Shown piece after piece: positions 3,393 through 59,769 of a stretch of DNA of 64,000 nt. Position 1 is the first letter of the stretch. Every line of letters starts with the position of its first letter. The position numbers were made by a program, and so were the translations under genes. Origin of the DNA: Microbacterium sp. 4R-513. Its GTDB lineage: Bacteria > Actinomycetota > Actinomycetes > Actinomycetales > Microbacteriaceae. The notes under the pieces are model-generated. The model worked only from the letters and a program-made list of their open reading frames with translations, was not told the DNA's origin and ran no database searches. Where the stretch lies: assembly GCF_011046485.1 (NCBI RefSeq), contig NZ_CP049256.1, positions 868,001 to 932,000 on the forward strand. Direction: 5' to 3'.

Positions 3393-3620
3393 GACGTGCC
3401 CCTCTCGGGCGCGGCAGCCCCCGATGCGCGCCTGGTCCGATGCAACCGCGACGCGCGTCCGCGGTCAACATCCGCGCACGACTTCGGGTGAGCGCCCGCA
3501 CGGCGAGTCCCGCTTCGGCCGCCCGACGACACGCGTCGGCGCGCACGAGCACTCTCCTCTCGACCCGCGGACGCGGCAGGGCTAGCCTGATCGCGGGGAG
3601 ACGGGCGTGGTGGGGTGGCC

Positions 3621-4871
3621 ATGAGCGTGACTGTGACGTTTCCGCGGTACGACGACCGCGGCCGGGCCTTCGTGACGTGGCGGCCCGTCGAGGTCAAGAT
3701 CGCCGTCAAGCCGCCGCAGGCGGGAGCCGCGCTGAACGTGCGGGTCTCGGCGCGGAGCGCCGCGGGCGGCGGCCGACTCGCCTTCGCCACATCGCTGACG
3801 CATGCGGGCGCGGCATCCGTCGATCTGAGCCTCCCCGCGAGCGGCTCGGCCGTCTCGGTCTGGGTCGGCGGAGCGTTCCCCGCGGCGAGCGCGGCCTTCG
3901 GCGACGTGACCGTCGAGGTGCGGGACCGCACGTCGAACGCGCTCCTCGCGAGCCACCCGACGATGGTGCGCGTCCGCAAGAACGCCGACCGCCTGACGAC
4001 GGCCGAGCGCGACCGGTTCCTCCGCGCGATGGCGGTGCTCAACGGAGCGGGCAACGGACGGTTCCGCGACTTCCGCGACATGCACGTCTCGGGGCCGCCG
4101 GATCGCGAGGCGCACGGCGGCACCGGCTTCCTGCCGTGGCACCGCATCTACCTGCTCGACCTCGAGCGCGAGCTGCAGGCCATCGACGGCGAGGTGTCGC
4201 TGCCGTACTGGCGCTTCGACCAGGCGGCGCCGAACGTCTTCACCCGGCAGTTCATGGGGGTCTCGGGGCCGCAGGACCGGGTGCAGTTCACGCCGACGAA
4301 TCCGCTCCGCGGGTGGGTCGCCGGTGCGCTGCCCGGAGTCGAGCGCGGTCCGGGGGTCGGCCCGCAGACGGTTCCGCTCGTGCGCACCGAGCAGCAGACC
4401 CTCGCGCTCGGCGGCTCGCCGGTCGCCGACTTCACCCCGTTCGCGTCGATGCAGGGCAATCCCCACGGGCGCGCGCACATGGCGCACCTGAGCGGCGTCA
4501 TCACCGACCCCGGCACCGCGCCGCAGGATCCCCTCTTCTTCCTCCTGCACTGCAACGTCGACCGCCTGTGGGCGAAGTGGCAGTGGGCGTTCCGGCGCCA
4601 CGATCCGGGCGCGGCCCGGGCCTACGCGATGAGCGCGACGCTGCCGGGCCACCGCATCGGCGACCGGCTCTGGCCGTGGGGCGGTCCCCTTCAGGCTCCG
4701 CGTCCGACGACGGCTCCGGGCGGTCAGCTCAACACCTCGCCGATGACGGATGCCCCTGGCCTGAGCCCGCGCATCCGCGACACGATCGACTACCTCGGCA
4801 CCGTCGCTCCGGCCCATCTGGGTTTCGCGTACGACGACGTGCCGTTCCAGCTGGTGGGAGCGAACCCGTGA
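3621..4871 (+). CDS. Tyrosinase-family type-3 copper protein
   Basis: A 416-residue protein with both copper sites of the tyrosinase/polyphenol oxidase family. CuA ligands are probably H155 (DMHV), H165 (EAHGGTG) and H174 (LPWHRIYLLDLE). CuB ligands are H282 and H286 (NPHGRAH) and H310 (FFLLHCNVDRLW). The family oxidises phenols to quinones with O2. Residues 1-115 form a beta-rich extension ahead of the catalytic domain that standard bacterial tyrosinases lack. There is no signal peptide. The ATG at 3621 is preferred; an in-frame GTG lies two codons upstream. A TAGCCT -10-like element sits upstream near 3583. The next gene overlaps its stop by 4 nt, so the two are cotranscribed. Confidence 0.88.
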   Translation: MSVTVTFPRYDDRGRAFVTWRPVEVKIAVKPPQAGAALNVRVSARSAAGGGRLAFATSLTHAGAASVDLSLPASGSAVSVWVGGAFPAASAAFGDVTVEVRDRTSNALLASHPTMVRVRKNADRLTTAERDRFLRAMAVLNGAGNGRFRDFRDMHVSGPPDREAHGGTGFLPWHRIYLLDLERELQAIDGEVSLPYWRFDQAAPNVFTRQFMGVSGPQDRVQFTPTNPLRGWVAGALPGVERGPGVGPQTVPLVRTEQQTLALGGSPVADFTPFASMQGNPHGRAHMAHLSGVITDPGTAPQDPLFFLLHCNVDRLWAKWQWAFRRHDPGAARAYAMSATLPGHRIGDRLWPWGGPLQAPRPTTAPGGQLNTSPMTDAPGLSPRIRDTIDYLGTVAPAHLGFAYDDVPFQLVGANP

Positions 4872-5767
4872 GCGACGACATCGAAGACCTGCGGAAGGCG
4901 TACGTTCAGGAGCTGACCGAGGAGCGCCGCGCGCGGCCGAAGCCGCTGAGCGCGCGCCGCGTCGCTGCCGCGCGCAGCCCCGAGATGAGCGACGAGGAGC
5001 TCGAGACGATGCTCGTCGACGCCGACACGTTCGAGACGGCGGTGCGCCTGCTGCTCGACATCCTCGCCGACGAAGCGGCGACGAGCGACCAGAAGCTGCG
5101 GGCCATCGAGCGGCTCGGCGGAGCAGCGTTCCAGCCGGTGCGCTTCGCGCCGTTCCACGCCGAGTTCGTCGAGCGGCTCCGGGAGCTCGCGGTCTCGGAC
5201 GACAAGCAGCTCCGCTTCCTCGCGCTCGACCGGCTGACCCTCGACGACGACGAGGTCGGCAAGCAGCTGCTGCGCGAGAGTCTCGAGGGCACGCGCAAGG
5301 CGCTCGTTCCCGCCGCGACCGCGACGCGCTTCCTCGCGCGGGACGAGCACGGCGACGCCGCGCCCCTCTTCCGTGAGCTCGCCCGGACGGGGTCCGCCCG
5401 GGTGCGAGAGGAGGCCCTCCGCGCCCTCGCCGCCGACCCCGACTCCGTCGGCCTCCTCTCCGAGATCTCCACCGACAAGACCGAGCGGCCGAAGGTGCGG
5501 GAGCTCGCCGCCATGAGCCTCAAGGCCGCCTCGCCCGAGGCGTTCGCGGAGGTGGCGCGGGGGCTCGTGATCGACGACGACGAAGACGACGCGCTGCGCA
5601 CCGCGACGCTCTCGGCTCTCGCCTTCACGCCCGAGGCGGGCGACGCCGTCGCCGGTCCGGCGTTCGACGCGCACCTCGACCGGATCAAGGGCGAGACCTC
5701 GTCGCGAGCGCTGCGCACTTCGATCGACCGCTTCACCGAGTCCCGCGCCCCCGAAGGGAACGGCTGA
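4868..5767 (+). CDS. HEAT-repeat-like helical scaffold protein in tyrosinase operon
   Basis: A 299-residue, strongly acidic, all-helical protein. From about residue 60 it consists of HEAT-like helical pairs, with repeats such as LRFLALDRLTLDDDEVGKQL and VREEALRALAADPDSVGL. No catalytic motif, signal peptide or membrane helix is seen. The GTG start overlaps the tyrosinase stop codon and has GGGAG at the right distance; the much longer open frame upstream is antisense or alternate-frame run-on. HEAT proteins usually act as protein-binding platforms. Its place between a copper oxidase and a SCO-like protein suggests it docks one or both of them; that is inference. Confidence 0.7.
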   Translation: MSDDIEDLRKAYVQELTEERRARPKPLSARRVAAARSPEMSDEELETMLVDADTFETAVRLLLDILADEAATSDQKLRAIERLGGAAFQPVRFAPFHAEFVERLRELAVSDDKQLRFLALDRLTLDDDEVGKQLLRESLEGTRKALVPAATATRFLARDEHGDAAPLFRELARTGSARVREEALRALAADPDSVGLLSEISTDKTERPKVRELAAMSLKAASPEAFAEVARGLVIDDDEDDALRTATLSALAFTPEAGDAVAGPAFDAHLDRIKGETSSRALRTSIDRFTESRAPEGNG

Positions 5768-5770
5768 CGG

Positions 5771-6712
5771 ATGCCGAGCCCCGTCGACGCCCTCATCGCC
5801 GACCTCCTCTCCCGGCCGGTGACCGCCGATCTGCTGCGTCAGGATGCCCCGCACACTGCGGGGCTCTCGGCCGCCGACGCCGAGCGCGTCCGCGCCCACC
5901 TGCTCGCCTCGTTCGAGGAACGCGGCATCCCGGGCCTGGCGGCCCGCGCCGTCGTGGCGGAGGAGCTTCGCACGAGCGCGAGCCCCATCGTGCTGGCGGG
6001 CGCGGCGCGCGCCGCGCGCAGCCTCGGCTCGGCCGTGGACGAGGAGTGGGCTGCGCTCCTGCGCGACGCCGCCGACCGCCTCGCGACGAACGACGTCTTC
6101 GTCCGCTGGCAGGCGGGCACGGTCGCCCCTTCGTGGATGCGCACGGCCCGCGGCGAGCTGCTCGCGACCCTCGAGGAGGTGCGAGCCCAGGCTGCGGCGC
6201 CCGTGAAGGGCTCGGGGGACGAGGCATCCGTCACCGCACTCGATGCCGAGGCGCTCGCGCGCGTACCGGTGGAGGACCAGGACGGCCGGACGGCGACGCT
6301 GGCCGACGCCCTCACCGGCCGCGAGACGGTGCTCGCCTTCTTCTACACGCGCTGCATGAACCCGGCGAGATGCTCCCTGACGATCACCCGGCTCGCGGCG
6401 GCGGCGCGCGCGGAGTCGCCCGCCGAACGCGCCCACCTCGCTGTGACGTACGATCCGGCCTACGACTCCCCCGCCCGCCTGCGTCGCTATGGCGCCGAGC
6501 GCGGCTTCCCCTTCGGGGACCGCGCCCGATTCTTGCGGACGACGGATGCCTGGCCCGACGTGAAGGCGATGTTCGGACTGCGCGTCGGCTACGGCCCGGT
6601 CACCGTCAACGAGCACGCACGGGAGCTGTTCCTCGTCAAGCGCGATCTCACGGCGCGCGGACTCGATCCGGACTGGCTCGCGAGCGCCGGGGCCGTCCCT
6701 TCGGCGGTCTGA
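5771..6712 (+). CDS. SCO1/SenC-like thioredoxin-fold protein (putative copper chaperone)
   Basis: A 313-residue protein whose C-terminal half (about 165-300) has the SCO fold: LAFFYTRCMNPARCSLTI carrying C195 and C201, and NEHARELFLVKRD carrying H282. This corresponds to the two cysteines and distal histidine that bind copper in SCO proteins. The cysteines are spaced C-x5-C, whereas classical SCO proteins have C-x3-C. The N-terminal ~160 residues are helical and unassigned. There is no export signal or membrane anchor, unlike cytochrome-oxidase SCO proteins, so it probably acts in the cytoplasm on the neighbouring tyrosinase. It follows the HEAT gene by 3 nt with GAAGGGA as ribosome-binding site. 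Confidence 0.72.
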   Translation: MPSPVDALIADLLSRPVTADLLRQDAPHTAGLSAADAERVRAHLLASFEERGIPGLAARAVVAEELRTSASPIVLAGAARAARSLGSAVDEEWAALLRDAADRLATNDVFVRWQAGTVAPSWMRTARGELLATLEEVRAQAAAPVKGSGDEASVTALDAEALARVPVEDQDGRTATLADALTGRETVLAFFYTRCMNPARCSLTITRLAAAARAESPAERAHLAVTYDPAYDSPARLRRYGAERGFPFGDRARFLRTTDAWPDVKAMFGLRVGYGPVTVNEHARELFLVKRDLTARGLDPDWLASAGAVPSAV

Positions 6713-6720
6713 GGCCTCCG

Positions 6721-7158
6721 CTACAGGGTCGGGATGTCGAGGACGCCCGGCTCGTCGGCCCACTCCTGGATGATCCGGTCCGACGCGTGGATGCACAGCA
6801 CTCGCAGCCGGCCCTCGCCGACGTTCGTGAACCCGTGCCACTGCCCCGGCCGCACGGTCGTCGTGTCGCCCTCCCGAGCGCGGAACACCCGGTCGCCGAG
6901 GCGGATCTCGGCCTCGCCGGCGAGCACGAACCACGTCTCGGAGTACGGATGCCGGTGCAGCCCCGGCCCCTGGCCGGGCTCGTTGTCGACGAAGAAGTAC
7001 GAGATGCCGGCGCCGTGGTCGGCGCCGATGAACATGCGCAGGCGCCCCCGGCCGGTGCGGAGCTCGTCGGCATGGACGAGCGTCCCCGGATCTGACGCCG
7101 CCTCGGGGTCGGCCGCGAGCGCGGCGATGAGGGCGAGTGTCTGTTCGGCGGTGTCCAT
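6721..7158 (-). CDS. Cupin-domain protein
   Basis: A 145-residue protein with one cupin_2 barrel. Motif 1 is GLHRHPYSETWFVLAGEAE (two His and one Glu as metal ligands) and motif 2 is RPGQWHGFTNVGEG (third His). Such small cupins are dioxygenases, isomerases or ligand sensors; the reaction cannot be deduced. The start at 7158 is chosen because GAGGAGG lies 6 nt upstream; a longer in-frame version would begin at 7215 without a site. It lies 73 nt downstream of efeB on the same strand and could be read through from the iron operon. Confidence 0.8.
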   Translation of the reverse strand: MDTAEQTLALIAALAADPEAASDPGTLVHADELRTGRGRLRMFIGADHGAGISYFFVDNEPGQGPGLHRHPYSETWFVLAGEAEIRLGDRVFRAREGDTTTVRPGQWHGFTNVGEGRLRVLCIHASDRIIQEWADEPGVLDIPTL

Positions 7159-7231
7159 GGCGGCCTCCTCTTCGATGCTTCCGCCAGTATCCACGCGGGC
7201 GCCGACAGGGTGCACCTTGACGTCGCCGGCG

Positions 7232-8557
7232 TCAGGCGAAGAGCTCGGCGCCGACGTACGACCCGGGCGTCGCCCCGCGCGGCACGGCCCACAGCCCCGA
7301 GCCGACGTGCCGGACGTACTCCGCCATGCGGTCGGTCGCGAGCGCCTTCTGCAGCGCGATGAACTGCTCGGGGCTGCGCTGGTATGACAGGAAGAAGAGG
7401 CCCGCGTCCAAGCGGCCGAGGTCGTTGTTGCCGTCGACGTAGTTGTAGCCGCGGCGGAGGATCCGGTTGCCGCCGTTCAGCGAGGGGTGGACGAGCCGCA
7501 CGTGGCTGTTCGGGTCGATGCGGGGGGCGCCCGAGGCATCCGTCGCCCGGAAGTCGGGCTCGGCGAACTCGCCGCCGCCCGAGAGCGGGGCCCCTTCGCC
7601 CTTGTCACGGCCGACGATCGCGTTCTGCTCCGAGAGCCGGACGCGGTCCCACGTCTCGACGAGCATGGCGATCTTGCGGGCGACGAGGTAAGACCCTCCC
7701 GCCATCCACGCGGGATCGTCGGATGCCGCGACCCACACATGATCGTCGAGCGAGGCCGTGTCGGTCGAGAGGATGTTGGCGGTGCCGTCCTTGAAGCCGA
7801 AGAGGTTGCGCGGCGTCGACTGATCGGTCGTCGTGCGGGACGTCCGGCCGAAGCCGAGCTGCGACCAGCGCAGGCGCGCACGGCCGAAGGCGATCCGGCT
7901 GAGGTTGCGCACGGCGTGCACGGCGACCTGGGGATCGTCGGCGCAGGCCTGGATGCAGAGGTCGCCGCCTGACTTGGCCGGGTCGAGGTCATCGCCGAGG
8001 AAGGCCGGAAGCCGCTCGAGCGAGGCGGGGCGCTGCCCGGCGATCCCGTAGCGGTCGGTGCCGTCGAGGTCGAAGAGGGTGGGGCCGAAGCCGAACGTGA
8101 TGGTCAGGCCGTTCGCCGCCAGGCCGAGCGCCTCTCCCGTGTCGTCGGGCGGCGCCTCGGGCGATCCGCCGACGGCGCCCGTCGCGCTCACGTCGAGGCC
8201 CTGGGTCATCCGCGAGGCCGCGTACGTCCAGTCCTGCAGCAGCGACACGAGGTCGTCGCGATCGGTGCGAGCCATCATGTCGAACGACGCGAAGTGCAGG
8301 TGGTCCTGCACGGGCGTCGTGATGCCGGCCTGGTGAGCGCCGTAGAAGTCGTAGGCGGATGCCGCGGCATCCGTCCGCTCCGAGCGCGCGACCGCCGCAG
8401 CCGTCGTCGCCCCGCCCGCGGCTCCGACCGCCAGGCCCGCCGCTCCCGCACCGAGCGCAAGGCCGAGGAGCCCACGCCGCGAGAGCCCGGACGGGCCGGA
8501 GGCGGGAGCGGGGCCGGGCGGGGCCTGGTCCGCGGCGGTCGAGGAGTCCTCAGTCAT
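7232..8557 (-). CDS. efeB: EfeB deferrochelatase / Dyp-type peroxidase
   Basis: A 441-residue heme peroxidase of the DyP family, the EfeB component of the EfeUOB ferrous-iron system. The N-terminus carries a twin-arginine signal (LSRRGLLGLALG, residues about 25-36) followed by an Ala/Gly-rich hydrophobic stretch, so it is exported folded with heme. The family signature GFKDGT is present, and a conserved His-rich heme segment (NSHVRLVHP) follows before GNRILRRGYNY. EfeB is proposed to oxidise Fe(II) or extract iron from heme outside the membrane. Its start lies 1 nt after the efeO stop, indicating translational coupling. Confidence 0.93.
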   Translation of the reverse strand: MTEDSSTAADQAPPGPAPASGPSGLSRRGLLGLALGAGAAGLAVGAAGGATTAAAVARSERTDAAASAYDFYGAHQAGITTPVQDHLHFASFDMMARTDRDDLVSLLQDWTYAASRMTQGLDVSATGAVGGSPEAPPDDTGEALGLAANGLTITFGFGPTLFDLDGTDRYGIAGQRPASLERLPAFLGDDLDPAKSGGDLCIQACADDPQVAVHAVRNLSRIAFGRARLRWSQLGFGRTSRTTTDQSTPRNLFGFKDGTANILSTDTASLDDHVWVAASDDPAWMAGGSYLVARKIAMLVETWDRVRLSEQNAIVGRDKGEGAPLSGGGEFAEPDFRATDASGAPRIDPNSHVRLVHPSLNGGNRILRRGYNYVDGNNDLGRLDAGLFFLSYQRSPEQFIALQKALATDRMAEYVRHVGSGLWAVPRGATPGSYVGAELFA

Positions 8558-8558
8558 G

Positions 8559-9788
8559 TCAGTCCAGCACGGTCACCGTGAGCTGCGAGAGCGGCTCGGC
8601 GAGGGCGTTGAGCAGGTCCGTGAGGGCGCGCTTGTCGTCCTCCGAGAGCTCGCGGTAGTTCACGAAGCCCGACGCCAGGCTGCCGTGCTCGGCGAGCGCG
8701 GCCTCGAGGTCGCTGTAGCCGCCCTCGATGTGCGCCACGAGCGCCGCACCGTCGTCGCCCTTCGCCTTCGCGAGGTCTTCGACGAGCGAGAACGCCATCT
8801 TCGACCCCTCGACGTTCGCGGCGAAGTCCGACAGGTCGGTGCCCGACCACCAGTCCTCCTCGCCCGTGATCTTGCCGGTCGCAACCTCGTCGAGGAGCGC
8901 GATCGCACCGTTCGAGAGTCCCGCGACGCCCTGGTCCTCGAGGGTCGACTCGAAGTCCTCGGACTGGACGTAGTCGAAGAGCTCCTGCACATCGGCGATC
9001 AGCTGGTCGCCGTACGACGCCCGCTCCTCGGTGGTCGACGGGCCCCAGTCCTGCCACGCGGGCGTCTCGCCGTCGGCGTTGAGCGCATCCTGCGCCGGCA
9101 CCCAGAGGTCCTTCTCGATGCGGTGGAAGCCCGTCCAGTCGAGGCCCTCGGCGACGGCGTCCACCTCGCGATAGTCGATACGCGGGTCGAGGTCGCCGAG
9201 CGCCTCGGCGATCGGCTCGATCCGCTCGTAGTAGGCGCGCACCTGGGGGAACTGCGTGCGGGCGGTCTCGTCGTCGCCCGACTCGTACGCCGTGACGAAC
9301 TCGTCCACGGCCGGGACGAGCCGGCCGACCTGGTCCTTCACGAAGGCGGCGTAGAGGTCGACCGCCTGCTTCTTCTGCTCGGCGTCGTCGCCCTCAGCCG
9401 CGACGCGGTCGCCGGTGACGGTGAAGGCCGCCCGACCGACGCCGTCGCCGACCATGCCCGGCTTGCAGAGGGTGTAGTACTCTCCCGGCTGGGCGACGAC
9501 GGTGAGCGTGCGCGAAGCACCCGGCGCGATGTTCTCGGCCTCGCCGACGATACGCAGACCGTCCTCGGCGAGGAGGTAGAACTCCGTCACCTGGTCGCCG
9601 GCGTTGGTGACGTCGAACGCCAGCGTGCCGCTCGTGGCGGTGGCGGACGAGACGGCGCAGCCGTCGGCGGTCGACGAGACCATGATTGCGTCGGATGCCG
9701 CGACATCCGTCTTGGCGACGCACCCGGCCAGCGCCACCGAACCGGCGGCGACGAGGGCGAAGGCGCCGAGAAGGCGGGGGGCGGTCAT
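8559..9788 (-). CDS. efeO: EfeO iron-uptake lipoprotein (cupredoxin + M75 domains)
   Basis: A 409-residue lipoprotein. A lipobox (VALAGC) puts the mature cysteine near residue 23. The N-terminal ~120 residues form a cupredoxin-like domain (FDVTNAGDQVTEFYLL, PGEYYTLCKPGM) and the rest is the helical M75/EfeO domain with the HxxE motif FHRIEKDLW. EfeO captures iron periplasmically or extracellularly and passes it to the EfeU permease. The start at 9788 has AAGGAG 4 nt upstream and overlaps the efeU stop by 4 nt. A longer open frame running back through efeU is spurious. Confidence 0.93.
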   Translation of the reverse strand: MTAPRLLGAFALVAAGSVALAGCVAKTDVAASDAIMVSSTADGCAVSSATATSGTLAFDVTNAGDQVTEFYLLAEDGLRIVGEAENIAPGASRTLTVVAQPGEYYTLCKPGMVGDGVGRAAFTVTGDRVAAEGDDAEQKKQAVDLYAAFVKDQVGRLVPAVDEFVTAYESGDDETARTQFPQVRAYYERIEPIAEALGDLDPRIDYREVDAVAEGLDWTGFHRIEKDLWVPAQDALNADGETPAWQDWGPSTTEERASYGDQLIADVQELFDYVQSEDFESTLEDQGVAGLSNGAIALLDEVATGKITGEEDWWSGTDLSDFAANVEGSKMAFSLVEDLAKAKGDDGAALVAHIEGGYSDLEAALAEHGSLASGFVNYRELSEDDKRALTDLLNALAEPLSQLTVTVLD

Positions 9789-47044: not shown

Positions 47045-50000
47045 TCAGGGAGTGAGGCTGAGCGCGACGAGCCGGTCCAGGGCGTCTTCGGGGATCTCGA
47101 CGCCGGGGAATCGGGCGAACTGTCCCATGGGCATCGACTCGACCATCTTGAGCATGTGGCCGTTGTCCTCGGCGGCGGCCATCTGCTCTGGAGTCGCGTT
47201 GGCCATCATCGCCTGCATGAGCGCCGGTCCAACGGTCGGGTGGCCGAACCACTGCGCGACGGTCGAGTCCAAGGTGAGCGGCTCCGGCCGATCCGTGTCG
47301 CCCTCGAGGTCCAGCGGAACGGAGTCCACGATCTCGGCGGACGACCGCCCGAGCTCGATCCCGTAGGTCCCCGGCTGCACGCGCCAGCGGTCCTTGACGG
47401 TGTCCCAGTACGCGAACGCCCGGCGATCCACCGCCAGCTCGACAGTTCGCACTTCGCCCGGCTCGAGGTGCACCTTCTGGAACGCGGCGAGCTCCCGTAC
47501 CGGCCGCCGCACCGGCGACGGCGGGGGCGCTACGTAGACCTGGACGACGTCGGCGCCGGCGACCGGCCCGGCGTTGCGCACTGTGACACGGACGGCCGCG
47601 CTGTCGGACCCGGTCATGACGACCTCGAGTGCTTCATGGGTGAACGTCGTGTAGGACTGGCCGTGCCCGAACGGGTACCGGACCGGTTGCTCAGCGGAGG
47701 TGTAGTACCGGTAGCCGACGAAGACGCCCTCGCCGTAGCGGACGATCTCGTTCTCTCCCGGGAAGTTGAGGAAGGAGGGGTTGTCCTGCAGCCGGAAGGG
47801 GATGGACTCGGCCAGTCGGCCGGACGGGTTCACCGCCCCTGTGAGGATGTCGGCGAGGGCTCCGCCGACGGCCTGCCCTAGCGCCCAGCCTTCGACGATG
47901 GCGTCGACGGAGTCGTGCCACGGCTCGAGCGTGACGACACCGCCGTTGGAGAGCACCACGACGGTGCGACCGGCGCGCCCGGCGACTGCCTCGATCAGAG
48001 CGACGTGGTCGGCCGGAAGGTCGATGTCCGTCCGGTCGAAGCCTTCGGACTGGTCCCTCTCGGAGAGCCCGACGAAGACGACGGCGACGTCCGCGGCCGC
48101 GGCCGTCTCGGCGGCTTCTTCGCGCAGCCGTGCCCCATCGAGGTCGCCGTCGCGGTCGCCGGGATATCCAGGCGAGTACGAGACGTTCTCCTCCCCCAGC
48201 GCCGCACGGAGCTCGGCGAGAGGGATGTCGAGCCGGGTCGGGTTGACGTGGGAGCTGCCGCCGCCCTGATACTGCGGCTCGGCGGCCAGGACGCCGAGCA
48301 CGGCCACCTTCTGCCCTGCCCGCAGCGGCAGTGTCCGGTCCTCGTTGCGGAGGAGCACGACACCAGCGGCTGCCGCCCGTCGGGCCAGCGCGTGGTGCGC
48401 CTCCTCGTCGAAGGTCGATGGTTCTTGAGACAGCCGGGTGCGGTCGGCGAGGTTCGCCACTCGTGCGGCGGCGCGTTCGACGACGTCGCGGTCGAGGCAT
48501 CCGTCGCGGAGCGCCTGGAGGATCGCGTCGGTGCCGTCATCACCGGTGCCGGGCATCTCGAGGTCGAGCCCGGCGCGCAGCGCCTCGACGCGGTCCTTGA
48601 TGGCGCCCCAGTCGGAGACGACCAACCCGTCGAAGCCCCATTCGTCGCGGAGAAGCTCGGTGAGCAGCCACCGGTTCTCGGACGCGAACACGCCGTTGAT
48701 GGCGTTGTACGAGCTCATCACCGACGTGGGCGCCGCCTCCTTCACGACCCGCTCGAAGGCGGGCAGGTAGATCTCGCGGAGGGTGCGCGGGTCGACCTCG
48801 GCGCTGACCCGCATACGGTCGGTCTCCTGGTTGTTCACCGCGAAGTGCTTCAGCGAGGTGCCGACGCCGGTGGATTGCACGCCGTGCACGTACTCGGCAG
48901 CGAGGATGCCCGTGAGCAGCGGGTCTTCGGCGAGGTACTCGAAGGTACGGCCGCCCAGCGGCGACCGCTTGATGTTGATCGCCGGGCCGAGGAGCACGTT
49001 CACGCCGAGCGCCCGGGCCTCCTCTCCCAGTGCGACCCCGACTTCGCGGATCAGCGCGGGGTCCCACGTGGATCCCATGGCGACACCCGGGGGGAAGCAG
49101 GTCGAAGGCAGCGAGTCGTTGAATCCGAGGTTGTCGGCGGCGCCGTCCTGTCGGCGCACACCGTGCGGACCGTCCACCATCACGATCGACGCCACTCCCG
49201 CGCTGTCGCGGGTCGACCAGAAGTCACGGCCCGAGAGCAGCGCCGCCTTCTCGCTCAGCTCGCCGTCGTCCGCCGTCGGCTGCGGAGCGGTGTAGATGTC
49301 GGCGGGAATCTCCTCGCCGGCGTTCAGCGCGGCGAAGCCCCGCTCGAGGTCGGCTAGCACCGCGGCCGGATCGGGCAGCATGCCGGTGATCTGGCGCGGG
49401 GTGACCTCGTCCTGCCCGCGCAGACCGCCCGACATGTGCTCGGCCGCGCCCGGCACCCACTTGGCGATGACACCGGTGAGCACCTTCAGCGCCGGCTTGT
49501 GGTCGGCGATGTCGGCCATGCGCGAGTCGACCGTGAACTCGCGCGCCGATTCCTCATCGACCTCGAACGGCTCGGTCCACTCGTGCGCGCCCGCCGTCAC
49601 CTCGAGGGCTCGTCCCGACGGAAGCACGACGTCGGCGGTGACACCCACCGGGATCGTCGCCGAGACGTGGAGCTGGCCGTCGGCCAGATCCCACCCGGCG
49701 GTCGCGGTGCCGTACGGGGTCAGAAGGGTGGCGCGCGCGGAGGTGAGGCCCAGGCGCGGGGGCTGGGGAGCCACACGGATGCGTCGATAGCCCGGCGCCG
49801 CAGGCGCGAGGCCGGCCACGACGCGGTGCATCCAGTCGGCGACCGCCCCGAAGGCGTAATGGTTGAACGAGGTCATGCCGCCGGGGTTGACGGTCCCGTC
49901 GGGCAGCAGGGAATCCCACCGCTCCCAGATGGTGGTGGCACCGTGCTCGACGGTGTACAGCCAGGACGGGGCATCCGTCTGCAGCAGCAGCCGGTACGCG

Positions 50001-52105
50001 ACGCCCGCGTGACCGTTCGCGCTGAGCGCATCGGTGACGATCGGGGTGCCGATGAACCCGGTCGCGATCTTGTAGCCGTTCCCTGCCACGATCTCCGCCA
50101 GCCGATCCGCGGCGCGCTGCCGCTGATCGGCGTCCGCGATGAGATCGAAGCTCAGCGCGAGGGCGTAGGCGGTGGCCGAGTCGGACAGCAGCCGCCCCGA
50201 GGGCGAGACGTACTCGCGAACGAACGCCTCCTTGACCTCATCAGCGAGCGCACCGTATCTCTCCGCCTCGTCGGTACGTGCGAGGAGGGCCGCGGCGTCG
50301 GCCACGATGCGCGAGGACCGGGCGAAGTAGGCCGTGGCGACGATCTCGGGATAGGTCTGCGCCTGTTCGGGGCGGTTGGCCGGCGCCGTGGGGTCGAGCC
50401 AATCGCCGAACTGGAAGCCGGCGCTCCATACCCGGTCCGGTCCCGCGGCTGCGGTGACTTCGTCGACCCAGGCGGCCATGCTGTCGAACTGGGACTCGAG
50501 GACGCCGAGATCGCCATAGGCCTGATAGATCGTCCACGGCACCACTGTCGCGGCATCCGCCCATCCGGCGGTGGGTCCGGTGTAGCCGGTGACGATCGCG
50601 GGCACGACCATCGGCGTGCCGCCGTACTTCTTCTGCTCCGCGGCGAGGTCTTTCAGCCACGAGACGAGGAAGCCGGCCGAGTCGTAGAGGTAGGCCGCCG
50701 TGGGGGCGAACACCTGCAGATCACCGGTCCAGCCGAGCCGCTCGTCGCGCTGGGGGCAGTCGGTGGGGATGTCGACGAAGTTCCCCTTCATCCCCCACAC
50801 CACGTTCTCGTGCAGCCGGTCCACCAGCGCGTTGTCGGTCTCGAACCAGCCGGTGCGGAGCAGATCGGAGTGCATGACCTCAGCGGTCACGGCTGCGGGA
50901 TCGAACTCGCCCGGCCAGCCGGTGACCTCGGCGTACCGGAAGCCGTGGAACGTGAACCGGGGCGCCCACGTCTCCTCGCCGTCGCCGGCGAGCGTGTAGG
51001 TGTCGGTCGCCTTGGCTCCCCGCAGGGGTTCGACCGCGAGCTCACCGTGCTCGAGGACCTCCGCGTGCCGGAGGGTGATCGTCGTGCCGGCCTCGCCCGA
51101 GACCGTGATTCGCAGCCGGCCGACGAGGTTCTGCCCGAAGTCGAGGATCGTGGTGCCCGATGGGGAGACCAGCACGTTCTGCACCGCGCGGGTTTCGACG
51201 ACTCGTACGGGCGGCCCATCGGGTGCGACGAGCGCCACGTCACTCAGCTCGCGCACCGCGACCGCAGTCCACCCGTCCAGGTGCGCGTCGATCGCCGACC
51301 ATGCCGGGTCGAACTCCCGGGCGTCGTAATCCTCACCGTCGTAGAGGTCGGCGGCCTGGATCGGGCCGGTGCCGGCCAGCCAGTCCGAACCGGAGGCGAC
51401 GGTCTGGCGGGTGCCGTCGGCGTAGTCGATCTCCAGCTGGACGAGCACGCCGAGGTCCGAGCCGTAGAGCGCCTTCTTGCCACCCCAGCCGAGATGGCCG
51501 CGCCACCACCCGTCGCCGAGCCACGCGCCGACGACGTTGTGTCCGGCCTGAACGAGATCCGTCACGTCGTAGGTGCTGTATCGAAGCCGCGACTCGTACG
51601 CGGTCCAGCCTGGTGCGAGCTCGTCGTCGCCGACCCGCCTCCCATTGAGCTCGAGCTGGAACAGGCCGTGACCCGTGGCGTAGACCCGCGCCCGGACCAC
51701 CTGGGCCCGTTCGACGGCGGTGAAGGATCCGCGCACGAGCGGCGACGCGATGGCCGAATCCGCCGGACCGATCATCTGAGCGGACCAGTCGGATGCCTCG
51801 AGCAGACCGGCCTCGACGGTCGCCCAGTCGCTCCATCCACTGGTGGACCCGTCGTGGCCGTGCACGCGCACACGGACCTCCCGCCGCTCCCGCGAACGCA
51901 GCGCATCGAACGGCCACGGTACGAGCACGGACTCGCCAGCATCGATGCGGATGCTCTCACCGTCACGTTGCTGAACCTCGTAGGCGGCCTGCGCCCAGCC
52001 CTCCGGGGCATCCGCCGTGATCCACGACAGTCGGGGTGCGGCTTCGCCGATGCCGAGGGCATCGCGGTGGTGCTCGAATCGGACGGGCGTGACGGTGAGA
52101 GACAT
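47045..52105 (-). CDS. Fused alpha-L-rhamnosidase (GH78) - beta-glucosidase-type GH3 enzyme
   Basis: A 1686-residue bifunctional glycosidase without signal peptide, so cytoplasmic. Residues 1-850 are a GH78 alpha-L-rhamnosidase: beta domains, then DCPQRDERLGWTGD (putative acid E455) and TTIWERWDS (putative base E728). Residues ~855-925 are a small helical module. Residues ~940-1610 are GH3: SLKHFAVNNQETDR, VVSDWGA (nucleophile D1165) and SEGFDRTDIDLP (acid/base region), then a fibronectin-III-like domain (VQVYVAPP). A second copy of the helical module ends the protein. It would remove rhamnose and then beta-linked glucose from rhamnosyl-glucosides. It is 26 nt downstream of an MFS transporter. 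Confidence 0.92.
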   Translation of the reverse strand: MSLTVTPVRFEHHRDALGIGEAAPRLSWITADAPEGWAQAAYEVQQRDGESIRIDAGESVLVPWPFDALRSRERREVRVRVHGHDGSTSGWSDWATVEAGLLEASDWSAQMIGPADSAIASPLVRGSFTAVERAQVVRARVYATGHGLFQLELNGRRVGDDELAPGWTAYESRLRYSTYDVTDLVQAGHNVVGAWLGDGWWRGHLGWGGKKALYGSDLGVLVQLEIDYADGTRQTVASGSDWLAGTGPIQAADLYDGEDYDAREFDPAWSAIDAHLDGWTAVAVRELSDVALVAPDGPPVRVVETRAVQNVLVSPSGTTILDFGQNLVGRLRITVSGEAGTTITLRHAEVLEHGELAVEPLRGAKATDTYTLAGDGEETWAPRFTFHGFRYAEVTGWPGEFDPAAVTAEVMHSDLLRTGWFETDNALVDRLHENVVWGMKGNFVDIPTDCPQRDERLGWTGDLQVFAPTAAYLYDSAGFLVSWLKDLAAEQKKYGGTPMVVPAIVTGYTGPTAGWADAATVVPWTIYQAYGDLGVLESQFDSMAAWVDEVTAAAGPDRVWSAGFQFGDWLDPTAPANRPEQAQTYPEIVATAYFARSSRIVADAAALLARTDEAERYGALADEVKEAFVREYVSPSGRLLSDSATAYALALSFDLIADADQRQRAADRLAEIVAGNGYKIATGFIGTPIVTDALSANGHAGVAYRLLLQTDAPSWLYTVEHGATTIWERWDSLLPDGTVNPGGMTSFNHYAFGAVADWMHRVVAGLAPAAPGYRRIRVAPQPPRLGLTSARATLLTPYGTATAGWDLADGQLHVSATIPVGVTADVVLPSGRALEVTAGAHEWTEPFEVDEESAREFTVDSRMADIADHKPALKVLTGVIAKWVPGAAEHMSGGLRGQDEVTPRQITGMLPDPAAVLADLERGFAALNAGEEIPADIYTAPQPTADDGELSEKAALLSGRDFWSTRDSAGVASIVMVDGPHGVRRQDGAADNLGFNDSLPSTCFPPGVAMGSTWDPALIREVGVALGEEARALGVNVLLGPAINIKRSPLGGRTFEYLAEDPLLTGILAAEYVHGVQSTGVGTSLKHFAVNNQETDRMRVSAEVDPRTLREIYLPAFERVVKEAAPTSVMSSYNAINGVFASENRWLLTELLRDEWGFDGLVVSDWGAIKDRVEALRAGLDLEMPGTGDDGTDAILQALRDGCLDRDVVERAAARVANLADRTRLSQEPSTFDEEAHHALARRAAAAGVVLLRNEDRTLPLRAGQKVAVLGVLAAEPQYQGGGSSHVNPTRLDIPLAELRAALGEENVSYSPGYPGDRDGDLDGARLREEAAETAAAADVAVVFVGLSERDQSEGFDRTDIDLPADHVALIEAVAGRAGRTVVVLSNGGVVTLEPWHDSVDAIVEGWALGQAVGGALADILTGAVNPSGRLAESIPFRLQDNPSFLNFPGENEIVRYGEGVFVGYRYYTSAEQPVRYPFGHGQSYTTFTHEALEVVMTGSDSAAVRVTVRNAGPVAGADVVQVYVAPPPSPVRRPVRELAAFQKVHLEPGEVRTVELAVDRRAFAYWDTVKDRWRVQPGTYGIELGRSSAEIVDSVPLDLEGDTDRPEPLTLDSTVAQWFGHPTVGPALMQAMMANATPEQMAAAEDNGHMLKMVESMPMGQFARFPGVEIPEDALDRLVALSLTP

Positions 52106-52131
52106 CGGCGACGGGCTTTCTTCGAGAGGTG

Positions 52132-53472
52132 TCAGCGGACGGAGCGGATGCGGAGTACGACGGCGCCCGCGAGGACCACGGAGACCGCGGCGACGATGAA
52201 CAGCAGCGTGTAGTTGCGCTCATCGCCGGTGACGCCGATGAGCAGGATCCCGGAAGCGACGAGCGGGGCGATCGACTGCGGGATGGAGGTGGCGAATCCG
52301 GTGATTCCCATGAAGCGGCCGGCGTCCGTCTCCCGCTCGGGAAGCACGTCCAGCAGCAGCGCCTGGTCGACCGCGGCGAACAGGCCCAGTCCGACCGAGG
52401 CGATGAGCGACCCGGTGATGAGCAGGGCCAGGCCAGGGGCGAACGCCTGCAGCAGCATCCCGACCGCCATGATCAGGCCGCCCAGCAGCACGAACAGACG
52501 GCGTCGCTTGAGACGGTCGGAGAGGAAGCCGCCGCCGATCGCCCCCAACGTCACGGCGAGGATGCCGCCCAGGCTCAGTGTCGCGATGATGCCGGCGACG
52601 GACTCCACGGCGATGCCGAGCCGGTCGGCGAAGAAGAAGGCCGTGTACGTCGTGTTCAGGGTGATGCCGGTGAAGAAGAGGAAACGGCTCAGCCAGTTCC
52701 ACGAGAAGTCGGGGTGCTTGCGCGGGTTGTAGACGTACTTCGACAGGAGTTGGAGGACAGTGATGGGGTCCTTCGGCAGCGGACGGCTGTCGTCCTCATG
52801 AACGAGCGTGACGAACAGCAGGACGAACAGCACTCCCACCGCACCGGGGACCAGGAAGAGAAGCAGGGGGTCGCCGGTGAAGAACTGCGCGAGGATCACG
52901 CCGAACACCGGGGCGATCTGAGTCGCGAAGCTCGTCAACCCGGCCACCTTGCCCCGCTGCGACTCGGGCAGGCGGTCGGCGGTGGAGATCTGCAGGTTGC
53001 TGAGCGTCGTGCCCCAGCCCCACTGGGCGAGGATCCAGCCGAGCCCCACGACGAGGACGTTCGGTGCGACGGCCATCACGACCAGCGAGAGCACGCCCAC
53101 GAGCATGCCGCCGATCATGAAGGGCCGGCGACGTCCGATCCGCGTGCGGGTGCGGTCGCTCCAGATCCCCATGAACGGCGAGGTGAGCATCACGAAGAGG
53201 GCGCCCGCGCCGGTGATGAACCCCAGATACTCGGGATGACCAGGTGCCAGCGTGTTGACCCGGATCGTGAGCGAGATCGCCAGCGGAGTGATGAAGGCCA
53301 TGAAGACGCCGAACTGCGCCAGCACCATGAACCAGATGTAGCGAGCGCCCACCTTGGGCAGCTCGGGAGCGGCGCGTGCCGCCTCGTCGAGCTCGACAGC
53401 GTTCACCGTCGGCGGCGGCAGGGTCGCAGGGAGAGGTGTGATGAGCGGTTCATCGTTGGTGGTAGGGCACAT
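52132..53472 (-). CDS. MFS transporter, probably glycoside/sugar uptake
   Basis: A 446-residue MFS permease with 12 helices. Motif A-like segments are GIWSDRTRTRIGRRRPF after helix 2 and GGFLSDRLKRRRLF after helix 8. The overall pattern (long central loop with PKDPITVLQLLSKYVYNPRKHPDFSW) resembles MFS members found with glycoside hydrolases. The 40-residue N-terminal arm is soluble and Pro-rich. GGAG lies 7 nt before the ATG. It heads the operon containing the GH78-GH3 enzyme and faces a LacI regulator, so it probably imports the intact glycoside. Confidence 0.88.
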   Translation of the reverse strand: MCPTTNDEPLITPLPATLPPPTVNAVELDEAARAAPELPKVGARYIWFMVLAQFGVFMAFITPLAISLTIRVNTLAPGHPEYLGFITGAGALFVMLTSPFMGIWSDRTRTRIGRRRPFMIGGMLVGVLSLVVMAVAPNVLVVGLGWILAQWGWGTTLSNLQISTADRLPESQRGKVAGLTSFATQIAPVFGVILAQFFTGDPLLLFLVPGAVGVLFVLLFVTLVHEDDSRPLPKDPITVLQLLSKYVYNPRKHPDFSWNWLSRFLFFTGITLNTTYTAFFFADRLGIAVESVAGIIATLSLGGILAVTLGAIGGGFLSDRLKRRRLFVLLGGLIMAVGMLLQAFAPGLALLITGSLIASVGLGLFAAVDQALLLDVLPERETDAGRFMGITGFATSIPQSIAPLVASGILLIGVTGDERNYTLLFIVAAVSVVLAGAVVLRIRSVR

Positions 53473-53501: not shown

Positions 53502-53515
53502 CTAGCGCGTGCTAG
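53502..53515. promoter_or_regulatory. LacI operator 1 between the glycosidase operon and its regulator
   Basis: CTAGCGCGTGCTAG is a 14-bp dyad, imperfect only in the centre. It is 30 bp upstream of the MFS start and so should control the glycosidase operon. Confidence 0.6.
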
Positions 53516-53543: not shown

Positions 53544-53559
53544 ACTAGCGCGCGCAAGT
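53544..53559. promoter_or_regulatory. LacI operator 2 next to the LacI gene
   Basis: ACTAGCGCGCGCAAGT is a 16-bp dyad with one mismatch pair. It shares CTAGCGCG with operator 1; centres are 43 bp apart. It lies 16 bp upstream of the lacI start, suggesting autoregulation and possible looping. Confidence 0.6.
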
Positions 53560-53575: not shown

Positions 53576-54568
53576 ATGCCGAGCCCGACGACCAAACGAG
53601 TCACAGCGGCCGATGTCGCCCGGTCGCTGGGCCTGTCTCGCGCCACCGTCGGGTTCGTGCTCAATGACACTCCCGGCCAGACCATCCCCGCTGCCACCCG
53701 GAACCGCGTGCTGGCGGAGGCCAAGCGGCTCGGCTACCGCGCGAACAGCGCTGCGCAGGCCCTCGCGAGCGGGAAGAGCCGGATCATCCTTCTCGTGCTG
53801 CCCGACTGGCCGCTGGACTACAGCATGCGCACGCACCTCGACGAGGCATCGCTCGCGCTCGACGAGGCGGGCTATTCGCTGGTCACGATGACCCCTCACC
53901 CCGGCGGGCAGGCGCGGCCGCTGTGGGAGACCCTGCGTCCGGACGTCGTCATCGGCATGGCCCCGTTCACGCGCGAGCAGCTCGACGAGATCCGCGGCAG
54001 TGGAGTGCAGCAGATCATCCCGCCGGTCGCCGCGGGCGAGGAGGGCGCTGTCGGCGACCTCGGATTCGCCGAAGGTCCGCGACTGCAGGTCGAGCATCTT
54101 CTCGGAAGCGGACGCAGAAGACTGGCGTTCGCAGGGTCCGCCGACCCGCGGATCACGGACCTCGTCACGCAACGATGCGAGCTCGCCCGTCGGACCCTGT
54201 CGACGCAGACCGGCGCTGAGTTCGTCGCCGAGGCCACCATCACCGAGGAGAACGCCGCCCAGACTCTGCACGCCTGGATGGACCGAGGCGTCGATGGGGT
54301 TGTGGCCTACAACGACGACATCGCGGCGATCGTGCTGAGCGCCGCGTTGCGGTCGGCCATCCCCGTCCCCGAACGCCTCGCGATCGTCGGCCACGACGAC
54401 ACCCCGCTCGCCGCTCTTCTCGTACCGTCGCTCTCTACGGTGCGAGTCGACAACGCGGGGCTCGGTCGGTTCCTGGCCGAGCTCGCTCTCAGCGCAGCGA
54501 CCGGCTCCGCTCCGCCGCTCGCCGGCCCCGAGACCGACGCCTACCTCGTGGTCCGCGAGACGACCTAG
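53576..54568 (+). CDS. LacI-family regulator of the rhamnosyl-glucoside locus
   Basis: A 330-residue regulator. The helix-turn-helix is VTAADVARSLGLSRATVGFVLND at residues 8-30, followed by the hinge RANSAAQALASGKSR and the ligand-binding domain (VAYNDDIAAIVLSAAL near 240; VGHDDTPLAALLVP near 275). AAAGGAGGG lies 5 nt before the ATG. It is divergent from the MFS/GH78-GH3 operon across 103 bp with two operator-like dyads. The likely inducer is a sugar or glycoside from that pathway. Confidence 0.9.
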   Translation: MPSPTTKRVTAADVARSLGLSRATVGFVLNDTPGQTIPAATRNRVLAEAKRLGYRANSAAQALASGKSRIILLVLPDWPLDYSMRTHLDEASLALDEAGYSLVTMTPHPGGQARPLWETLRPDVVIGMAPFTREQLDEIRGSGVQQIIPPVAAGEEGAVGDLGFAEGPRLQVEHLLGSGRRRLAFAGSADPRITDLVTQRCELARRTLSTQTGAEFVAEATITEENAAQTLHAWMDRGVDGVVAYNDDIAAIVLSAALRSAIPVPERLAIVGHDDTPLAALLVPSLSTVRVDNAGLGRFLAELALSAATGSAPPLAGPETDAYLVVRETT

Positions 54569-54635: not shown

Positions 54636-54726
54636 TGGCGGTGACGGTGGGATTTGAACCCACGGTAGGGGGTTACCCTACACAACTTTTCGAGAGTTGC
54701 ACCTTCGGCCGCTCGGACACGTCACC
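54636..54726 (-). tRNA. tRNA-Ser (anticodon CGA)
   Basis: A 91-nt class II tRNA on the minus strand, including an encoded CCA. The acceptor stem is GGTGACG/CGTCACC with discriminator G. The anticodon stem is CAACT/AGTTG with loop CTCGAAA, giving anticodon CGA, which reads UCG. A long variable arm (GTAGGGT...CCCTAC) is typical of serine tRNA, and the T arm has GTGGGTTCAAATCCCAC. A TAAACT -10-like element lies 8 bp upstream at 54734-54739. Confidence 0.97.
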
Positions 54727-57820: not shown

Positions 57821-58501
57821 ATGCGCCCCGTCACCGTTGTCATTCCCTGGCGGCCCGCACCGTCGCGTGTGCCTGCATTCGAGTTCGTGCAGGAATGGTA
57901 CTCCCGGTTCCTTCCTGACTTCGCCCTCCGCACGATCGACACCGACGACGACATCTTCTCCCTGGCCGCGTGCCGTAACCGGGGAATCGCCTCAGCCGAT
58001 CCCGACCAGGTGGTGGTGGTCGCCGATGCCGACACCGTTCCCGAGCCGACCGCGCTGCGCGAAGCGGTCAGCGCGGCGCGCACCAGCGGCCGCGTACATC
58101 TGCCCTACACCGAGTACCGCTGGCTCGGAAGGACCGGCGACGCGCAGCTGCGCTCCGGCCTGGCCGCCGAAGAGTGCGACCACGAGCTCGTGGTCGGTGC
58201 CTGCTCGGGCGTGTACGTGACCACCCCGCGCACATGGGCGCGCCACGGCGGCCAGGATGAGCGATTCCGCGGCTGGGGGTTCGAGGACGCCGCGTGGTAC
58301 ATCGCGCACGAGACGCTGCTGGGCGCTCCCCCGGTGCGTCACGAGGGTCGCGTGTACGCGCTTCACCACCAGGGCGAGGTGCGTGCCGGCACGCAGTACG
58401 ACGCCAACGCGGCGCTCATGGAGCGCTACCGCTCCGCCGGGGGCGACGTGCTCGCGATGTCTCAGCTGGTCGCGGGCGCAGCGGTCGTCAGCAGTTCGTA
58501 G
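57821..58501 (+). CDS. GT2-like glycosyltransferase with galactosyltransferase C-terminal motif
   Basis: A 226-residue soluble GT-A enzyme. VTVVIPWRPAPSR starts the nucleotide-sugar fold, VVVADADTVPEP near residue 66 carries the DxD metal motif, and ERFRGWGFEDAAWYIA near 150 is the GWGxED motif of the beta-1,4-galactosyltransferase-type C-terminal region. Acceptor and donor are unknown. The 3' end overlaps the next gene, on the opposite strand, by 40 bp. Confidence 0.85.
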   Translation: MRPVTVVIPWRPAPSRVPAFEFVQEWYSRFLPDFALRTIDTDDDIFSLAACRNRGIASADPDQVVVVADADTVPEPTALREAVSAARTSGRVHLPYTEYRWLGRTGDAQLRSGLAAEECDHELVVGACSGVYVTTPRTWARHGGQDERFRGWGFEDAAWYIAHETLLGAPPVRHEGRVYALHHQGEVRAGTQYDANAALMERYRSAGGDVLAMSQLVAGAAVVSSS

Positions 58502-59769
58502 GCGATCGCCGGACCCGGCCGGTTGGTCTGCTCACTCGCGATCGACCGCAGCAGCGGCATGCCGGCCCGTCCCCTCACCTGGCGGAGAGCCTCGACGAGC
58601 TCGGTGACGCCGGCCGCATTCGGATCGAGAGCGCGCCCGACACCGCAGCGCTCGATCGCGGCGGCTGCGGCGAACTGATCCGTGGAGAACGGCAGCACCA
58701 GGAGCGGCACGCCCTGGCCGACGGCCTCGGTGACCGAGTTGTTGCCGCCGTGGGTGACCGCGACCTGCGCTTCCCCGAGCAGCCGCACCTGGGGCAGATA
58801 CTCGCGCACAAGCCAGTCGTCCGGGATGGGTCCGAGCTCTTCAGCCGGGCTCGCACCGGTCGCGATCGCCGCCGTCATGCCCAACTGCCTGAGGGCGTCC
58901 GCCACGCGACGAAGCACGTCGCCGCGCACCGACAAGAAGGTGCCGAAGCTGACGTAAGCGAAGTCCCCCGCGGTCGCGAGCCACTGCTCCACCTCGTCGT
59001 CGATCGGTTCCACGCGGCGCGTCGAACCGAGGAAGACGTGGGGCGGCGGCAGCATCCGTCCGTCTCCTTCTGCGAGAGCTGAAGGGTAGTTGAACATGAC
59101 GAGGTCGCCGTGCTCGCCGAACGCATGATCGGTCACGGGGGCCGATGGATCGAGCGCCTGCGCAGCGCGATTCCACTCGGACGTGAACCGCGCCGACACC
59201 TCGTCGCACAGGACGCGAAGGGCTGCGAGCTCCTCGGGTGCGGGCGAAAATGCCCGGGGCCAGAACGGCGGAAAGCCATACACCTCGCCGGAGACCGGCA
59301 GGGCGCTCGGGTGACCCAGTACGACATCCGCGTACGGCACGCCGGCCGTCCGCAAGGCCAGCCGCGCACTGAATGCCAGGTGATCGACGATGATCGCATC
59401 GGGCCGGACGGCCTCGACCGCGGCGAGCGTGCGGCGGCCCGCATCCACCGGCTCCCACATGAGATCGGTGAGGCGCTCCGTCGCCTGATAGCTGAGTGTC
59501 GGCACCATCCCGCGGCGGGTGGCGGCGAAGAATCCACGCAGCGAGTCGGACTCGTCCCGGGGCTGATCCTCCGCGCGGCTGAGACGTGGGTTGCTCCCCC
59601 GCCCGAGCGGGAGGTCGTAGCGCTCCAGGCCGAACTCGCGAACGATGGGATCGGTCGCTGGTCCCGTGGCGACCACGACCCTCTCGCCCCTGTCCCGCCA
59701 CGCGGTTGCGAGCGTCACCAGGGGGAGGAGGTGCGACGCGTAATCAGGGCTGATGACGAGGAGGGTCAC
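58462..59769 (-). CDS. UGT/MGT-type GT-B glycosyltransferase
   Basis: A 435-residue GT-B enzyme of the UDP-glycosyltransferase/macrolide-glycosyltransferase group. The donor signature is AVTHGGNNSVTEAVGQGVPLL near residues 335-355, and the N-terminal fold begins LLVISPDYASHLLPLVTLA. Such enzymes decorate small molecules, lipids or antibiotics. The GTG start overlaps the stop of the HEAT-GT gene upstream (GTGA), so both are cotranscribed. Confidence 0.85.
   Translation of the reverse strand: MTLLVISPDYASHLLPLVTLATAWRDRGERVVVATGPATDPIVREFGLERYDLPLGRGSNPRLSRAEDQPRDESDSLRGFFAATRRGMVPTLSYQATERLTDLMWEPVDAGRRTLAAVEAVRPDAIIVDHLAFSARLALRTAGVPYADVVLGHPSALPVSGEVYGFPPFWPRAFSPAPEELAALRVLCDEVSARFTSEWNRAAQALDPSAPVTDHAFGEHGDLVMFNYPSALAEGDGRMLPPPHVFLGSTRRVEPIDDEVEQWLATAGDFAYVSFGTFLSVRGDVLRRVADALRQLGMTAAIATGASPAEELGPIPDDWLVREYLPQVRLLGEAQVAVTHGGNNSVTEAVGQGVPLLVLPFSTDQFAAAAAIERCGVGRALDPNAAGVTELVEALRQVRGRAGMPLLRSIASEQTNRPGPAIAYELLTTAAPATS

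Follow-up and report, generated by a model that had tools for sequence, protein, structure and literature searches.

A GH78–GH3 fusion protein of Microbacterium sp. 4R-513 as the covalent form of a recurrent LacI–MFS permease–GH78–GH3 cassette

The fused gene and its neighbourhood

The window, the whole 64,000-nucleotide stretch of Microbacterium sp. 4R-513 DNA analysed here, contains a gene that joins a GH78 and a GH3 glycoside hydrolase in one chain, together with a permease gene, a divergent LacI-family regulator gene and the remnant of a short-chain dehydrogenase/reductase (SDR) gene (Table 1). A sequence-only reading had proposed a single polypeptide at positions 47045–52105 without giving its strand. 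The gene lies on the minus strand, its 1686 codons are open from ATG to stop, and no stop or frameshift interrupts the frame between residues 850 and 940. The GC content by codon position of the minus frame (0.724/0.498/0.887) favours this frame as coding. A plus-strand ORF at 49436–52213 (0.866/0.522/0.717) has the look of a shadow frame and was rejected as a gene. A tRNA-Ser gene just past the LacI gene (54636–54726, minus strand) is a possible island border, and a UDP-glycosyltransferase-like gene lies at 58465–59769 (minus strand), with a 78% identical copy near the fused locus L068 (14792–16093).

Table 1 Features of the fused gene and its surroundings (positions in the window; residues of the 1686-residue chain)
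Feature	Positions	Strand	Evidence
SDR gene remnant, N-terminal ~100 aa	46670..46972	minus	likeness to the SDR after GH3 in some cassettes
GH78–GH3 fusion, 1686 aa	47045..52105	minus	single open frame and Pfam
Ig_Rha78A_N, residues 5–103	51797..52093	minus	Pfam
Bac_rhamnosid_N, residues 135–304	51194..51703	minus	Pfam
Bac_rhamnosid concanavalin-like domain, residues 315–412	50870..51163	minus	Pfam
GH78 6-hairpin catalytic domain (Bac_rhamnosid6H), residues 417–763	49817..50857	minus	Pfam, 1e-125
Bac_rhamnosid_C, residues 765–835	49601..49813	minus	Pfam
GH78 C-terminal helical extension and linker, residues 848–945 (helices within 863–928)	49271..49564	minus	
Glyco_hydro_3 N domain, residues 1001–1219 (D1165 in VVSDW)	48449..49105	minus	Pfam, 1.2e-41
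Glyco_hydro_3_C, residues 1249–1465 (E1354 in SEGFDR)	47711..48361	minus	Pfam, 7.7e-53
Fn3-like domain, residues 1519–1589	47339..47551	minus	Pfam
GH3 C-terminal helical tail, residues 1596–1686	47048..47320	minus	profile comparison and model
MFS permease, 26 nt upstream of the fusion	52132..53472	minus	Pfam
LacI-type operator-like palindrome CTAGCACGCGCTAG	53502..53515		
Second operator-like site CTTGCGCGCGCTAG	53545..53558		
Divergent LacI-family regulator	53576..54568	plus	Pfam

Both palindromes lie in the gap between the regulator and permease genes, 43 bp apart. Three exact matches to the pattern CTWGCNCGNGCTAG occur in the 3.91-Mb genome, none of them outside these two sites; read backwards as a control, the pattern gives twelve. 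Within the window, four matches with at most one mismatch were found against 0.48 expected. Judged by exact matches, which would miss deviating sites, the regulator seems to serve its own operon alone.

The architecture is widespread in sequence databases. A whole-protein search returned 2815 relatives, and among the 120 matches listed, 100 carry both domains, some of them as fragments; some of the corresponding NCBI records are named 'family 78 glycoside hydrolase catalytic domain'. Holders among these listed matches include Microbacterium, Leifsonia, Agromyces, Nocardiopsis, Tessaracoccus, Glycomyces, Actinomyces and [Pseudomonas] boreopolis. Scoring the two or three best candidates per genome, so that all counts are lower bounds, we found an intact fusion in at least 12 of 366 genomes of the genus (this one included), and in at least one of 150 family-sample and one of 396 phylum-sample genomes, each time the present genome. 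The sequence-only reading knew of no described natural single-chain enzyme of this kind. Neither a natural GH78–GH3 chain nor an assay of one was found among titles and abstract openings listed from an open-access library, but the databases already contain the architecture. The fusion is real and recurrent. That a sequencing or assembly error, or a chance junction, joined two genes is virtually inconceivable given the intact copies in 12 genomes of the genus and in named records from Microbacterium, Leifsonia, Agromyces and Tessaracoccus.

Two gene models in the databases begin inside the fused frame, and the architecture may therefore be under-annotated. P0122, which represents this genome in the protein collection, is a 778-residue model starting at M909, and P0127 from Microbacterium bovistercoris is a 725-residue model. 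Such models would agree with a GH3 enzyme made also, or mainly, from an internal start, with the fused chain as the minor product. However, P0127 exactly matches a stretch of the longer open frame of the 1679-residue fusion P0032, no stop separates the halves, and the linker region (residues 831–950) retains ~46–88% identity in the alignment of class-A fusions, the window's own class (see below). We therefore regard two proteins as the main product as very improbable. High-identity 'stand-alone' GH3 proteins were likewise rejected as proof of split genes, P0127 being a fragment of P0032.

Domains, active sites and C-terminal modules

The expectation of a complete GH78 and a complete GH3 enzyme in one chain agrees with the full Pfam domain sets found for both. 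The GH78 set passes the Pfam cut-offs, the 6-hairpin domain reaching 420 bits against a cut-off of 24.5, and the GH3 half contains the N, C and Fn3-like domains. All motifs quoted in the sequence-only reading are present: CPQRDERLGWTGD at residues 450–462 and TTIWERWDS at 724–732 in GH78, and SLKHFAVNNQETDR, VVSDWGA at 1162–1168 and SEGFDRTDIDLP from 1353 in GH3. E455 and E728 align with E636 and E895 of the Streptomyces avermitilis α-L-rhamnosidase (PDB 3w5m), which we take to be its catalytic pair, and hence assign the same roles to E455 and E728. In the GH3 half, D1165 is presumably the nucleophile and E1354 the acid/base residue. All four residues are invariant in 96 of 96 aligned fused proteins longer than 1450 residues, a set that includes the present protein and omits five shorter ones of the list.

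The nearest PDB sequences are the Aspergillus terreus rhamnosidase 6gsz for the GH78 half and 5wab, 7ms2 and 8j9f for the GH3 half. AlphaFold models of residues 1–945 (pLDDT 79.7, pTM 0.80) and 836–1686 (pLDDT 83.0, pTM 0.79) were compared with known structures using Foldseek. The GH78 model resembles 6gsz (44% identity) and 3w5m (35%), and the GH3 model resembles PSTG1 (46%), 7ms2 and 5wab. The pLDDT of the GH78 model falls below 50 at residues 444–465 and 724–746, where the catalytic motifs sit, and the assignment of the GH78 active site therefore rests on the sequence alignment.

The regions that follow the two catalytic halves, residues 848–945 and 1596–1686, are helical in the AlphaFold models. 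Profile–profile comparison relates them with a probability of 91.6% (E 8e-7, score 38.6), and 30 column-shuffled controls scored at most 17.0. On this comparison, the GH78 extension and the GH3 tail are homologous modules. No Pfam model matches them at E 0.001. A joint module profile, built in part from the two fusion regions themselves, finds both places in this genome; weaker matches are the end of another GH78 at 1666623 (E 0.008) and two places with E 0.036 and 0.27. Assembly is one possible role of the module. A different GH78 of the same genome (2058999–2061603) gives matches in three pieces in different frames and is possibly broken.

Fused and split cassettes

The fusion represents, with its two enzymes covalently joined, a recurrent cassette: LacI–MFS permease–GH78–GH3. 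Among the named loci fetched with the GH3 half (the best 80 of 447), eight are fused, all with MFS and LacI genes; in seven, GH78 and GH3 are encoded by separate genes, GH78 lying upstream in the same orientation; 64 lack a GH78 immediately ahead of GH3; and one, L078 from an Ancrocorticia MAG, has an interrupted fused frame at 1850–8727. In L078 the GH78 gives two matches ~4.7 kb apart, as if split by an insertion. Together with 12 loci from the genus search, five of them in common, the eight named loci make 15 distinct fused loci. The permease next to the fusion, already part of the sequence-only reading, is found in all 15, and a LacI gene in all eight fused loci fetched with long flanks.

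We compared these with 14 split loci: the seven named ones, six chosen from the family and genus samples for their side-by-side genes, and one plasmid locus. An MFS gene is present in all 14 (on the other side in L149, and with another GH78 in between in L082), and 12 also showed a LacI gene, the exceptions being L084 and L089. Taking the nearest start codon as the start, the GH78 stop overlaps the GH3 start in 12 of the 14, by the four bases ATGA in nine and by one base in three. In L152 the two genes share a frame with a 15-nt gap between them, and the spacing in L084 is 0.75 kb or more. The most natural reading of the fusion is therefore a translationally coupled pair made covalent. The exact operator-like pattern occurs in 14 of the 15 distinct fused loci and 11 of the 14 split loci, being absent, among the fused and split loci searched, from L047/L071, L076, L084 and L155; thus both forms seem to answer the same signal. 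The pattern is also found in L079 and L137, two GH3 loci with LacI genes and no GH78 beside GH3.

The plasmid locus, L155, is on pLRE138 of Rhodococcus erythropolis R138 (NZ_CP007257.1), a strain from hydroponic potato pots. Here the split cassette reads LacI, rhaI, rhamnulose-phosphate aldolase/dehydrogenase, rhamnulokinase, MFS, GH78, GH3. Relatives of these rhaI (74%) and aldolase (77%) genes occur in the present genome near 1.66 Mb and are not neighbours of the fusion, which lies near 0.92 Mb. On an L. plantarum plasmid (L156, NZ_CP042259.1) the order is GH3–GH78–MFS, beside rhamnose catabolism genes. Of the 22 cassettes searched, nine have an SDR gene after GH3: five of the eight named fused loci (L067, L070, L071, L072 and, at 1.5 kb, L077) and four of the 14 split ones (L076, L147, L149 and L151). 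The full-length form in L067 is NAD-dependent epimerase/3-beta-HSD-like, has ~490 residues and carries a Cys-rich C-terminal motif. Only a remnant is present in the window, and this copy of the cassette may therefore have lost a step.

In a GH78 tree of 84 hand-chosen rows, fused proteins fall in class A (the window's class; support 100), in a class B clade, in two class C rows placed among split-cassette GH78s, and in a clade X that includes [Pseudomonas] boreopolis. With hand-chosen rows, quick trees and groups named after the trees were inspected, AU tests on 21 of the 26 class-A proteins of the tree set, three of the four B, both C and four of the six X proteins rejected A and B as one group (p 7e-98) and all fused GH78s as one group (p 4e-49), and rejected A and X weakly (p 0.027). 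B and C are separated by starred branches only. These topologies suggest apparently at least three independent fusions, A, B and C, with different GH78 lineages, and X is likely a fourth. One old fusion followed by many separations would be compatible with the clade tests, but it requires more events.

Separation has probably occurred as well. The fused clade also contains stand-alone class-A GH78s, so that the class-A fusions alone are not a clade (p 9e-6); loss or separation of the GH3 half is likely. A search with such stand-alone proteins, P0105 among them, gave two matching genomes among 297 of the order, both fused, and a search for B-type fusions gave no full-length match among 297 genomes of the order. 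The class-A GH3 halves, set against 17 non-fused GH3s read from loci rather than from database rows and against the other fusions, do not form one clade (p 3e-55), so that halves also appear to have been exchanged or separated again. The GH3 trees do not match the GH78 trees, which we count against the explanation preferred below.

Candidate function and comparison with known systems

The GH3 half had been called a β-glucosidase. It is a complete GH3 enzyme, but this specificity is not secure. The best NCBIfam model is that of an exo-α-(1->6)-L-arabinopyranosidase (NF041610; 865 bits, below its cut-off of 1300); β-glucosidase models rank after it, likewise below their own cut-offs, and the nearest solved structures carry β-glucosidase names. 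The proposed cytoplasmic location is in keeping with an N-terminus that, inspected by eye only, has no visible signal sequence. The gene context points to rhamnosides as substrates. Flavonoid rutinosides and neohesperidosides, chacotriosides and saponins would all fit as candidates. Saponin and glycoalkaloid glycosides fit as well as rutinosides, because a GH78–GH3–GH2 cluster has been published for α-chaconine and α-solanine (PMC9597252).

The best explanation, and in our judgement a probable one, is a cytoplasmic, LacI-controlled, two-headed exo-glycosidase for imported plant glycosides. We infer both activities, their order of action, the import of the intact glycoside, the regulation and the substrate class. 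The MFS permease would import an intact plant O-glycoside, from which the GH78 half would cleave the terminal α-L-rhamnose. The GH3 half would then cleave the exposed β-D-glucosyl, or α-L-arabinopyranosyl, group from the aglycone. GH78 enzymes hydrolyse with inversion and GH3 enzymes with retention, and the two steps would proceed accordingly by inversion and then retention. Released rhamnose could enter the genome's own rhaI/rhaDE-like route, and LacI regulation would make the enzyme inducible. In favour of this explanation are the complete domains, the invariant catalytic residues, the permease and regulator beside the fusion, the overlapping split genes, the shared operator-like pattern and the rhamnose catabolism genes of pLRE138. 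Counting against it are the distance between the rha genes and this operon, the insecure GH3 specificity, the reduced SDR gene and the occurrence of the operator-like pattern near GH3 genes lacking a GH78 neighbour in L079 and L137.

Alternatively, the fusion may merely fix a 1:1 ratio and co-expression. The halves would then be independent, perhaps acting on different glycosides, with GH3 as an α-L-arabinopyranosidase or general β-glucosidase and no sequential action on one substrate. The arabinopyranosidase model as the best match for GH3 agrees with this, as does the coupling by overlap that already exists between the split genes. In addition, PMC9597252 describes the GH78 enzyme RhaA and the GH3 enzyme GluA as broad in activity and each alone as yielding the aglycone solanidine, which could make a second active site dispensable. 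Against independence, the sharing of regulator site and permease, together with the recurrent joining of these two enzymes, suggests a single substrate class. We consider independent halves possible but rather unlikely.

The two-headed exo-glycosidase might, as a special case, channel its substrate, the rhamnose-free intermediate passing from GH78 to GH3 within the protein. The several fused lineages and the homologous helical modules at both C-termini are consistent with such passage; in the models, however, ~16 residues without predicted helix or strand lie between the GH78 module and the first GH3 helix. Channelling seems to us distinctly unlikely. The same low expectation attaches to a more elaborate proposal, in which GH78 and GH3 would assemble physically via their C-terminal modules, and translational coupling followed by repeated independent fusion would lock a channelling assembly.

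The locus seems to encode a natural 'naringinase-type' enzyme in one chain, and it can be compared with split relatives, coupled gene pairs and apparently at least three separately fused lineages. This lets the gain from fusing consecutive glycosidases (ratio, stability or channelling) be tested directly. Such a protein may also serve one-protein deglycosylation of flavonoids, saponins or potato glycoalkaloids.

Among known systems, rutinosidase (α-rhamnosyl-β-glucosidase, EC 3.2.1.168) removes the whole disaccharide with one active site and contains no GH78; it would share the kind of substrate with the fusion. The rhamnosidases 6gsz and 3w5m have the same GH78 fold but no GH3 partner in the chain, and the NF041610 model describes GH3 alone, over 738 positions, in contrast to a two-enzyme chain. 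The PDB entries of PSTG1 (8j9f, 9lql) are GH3 enzymes like the GH3 half, and the sequence alignment of PSTG1 with it includes the tail. Judging from the names, PSTG1 appears to be the sesaminol-triglucoside β-glucosidase of Paenibacillus sp. KB0549, described in PMC3622683 as an intracellular enzyme for a plant lignan triglucoside; unlike the fusion, it is a stand-alone tetramer that prefers the β-1,2-glucosidic linkage.

The closest published counterpart is the RhaA (GH78)–GluA (GH3)–GalA (GH2) cluster of Glutamicibacter halophytocola S2 and Arthrobacter sp. S41, which strips sugars from potato glycoalkaloids (PMC9597252, PMC10653915). Like the cassette, it has GH78 and GH3 as neighbours, with consecutive locus numbers in S2, and its reported gene sizes (2487 and 2340 bp) are similar to those of the pLRE138 split pair (2499 and 2241 bp). 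Unlike the fusion, it is described as separate chains with an additional GH2 (PMC9597252). A Pfam scan of 14 window ORFs gave no GH2, nor did five further ORFs scanned in the Arthrobacter locus L076, where an SDR and an alpha/beta-hydrolase gene follow GH3. The GH78–GH3 adjacency of the RhaA–GluA type is present as a fusion in the window and as adjacent genes in its split relatives.
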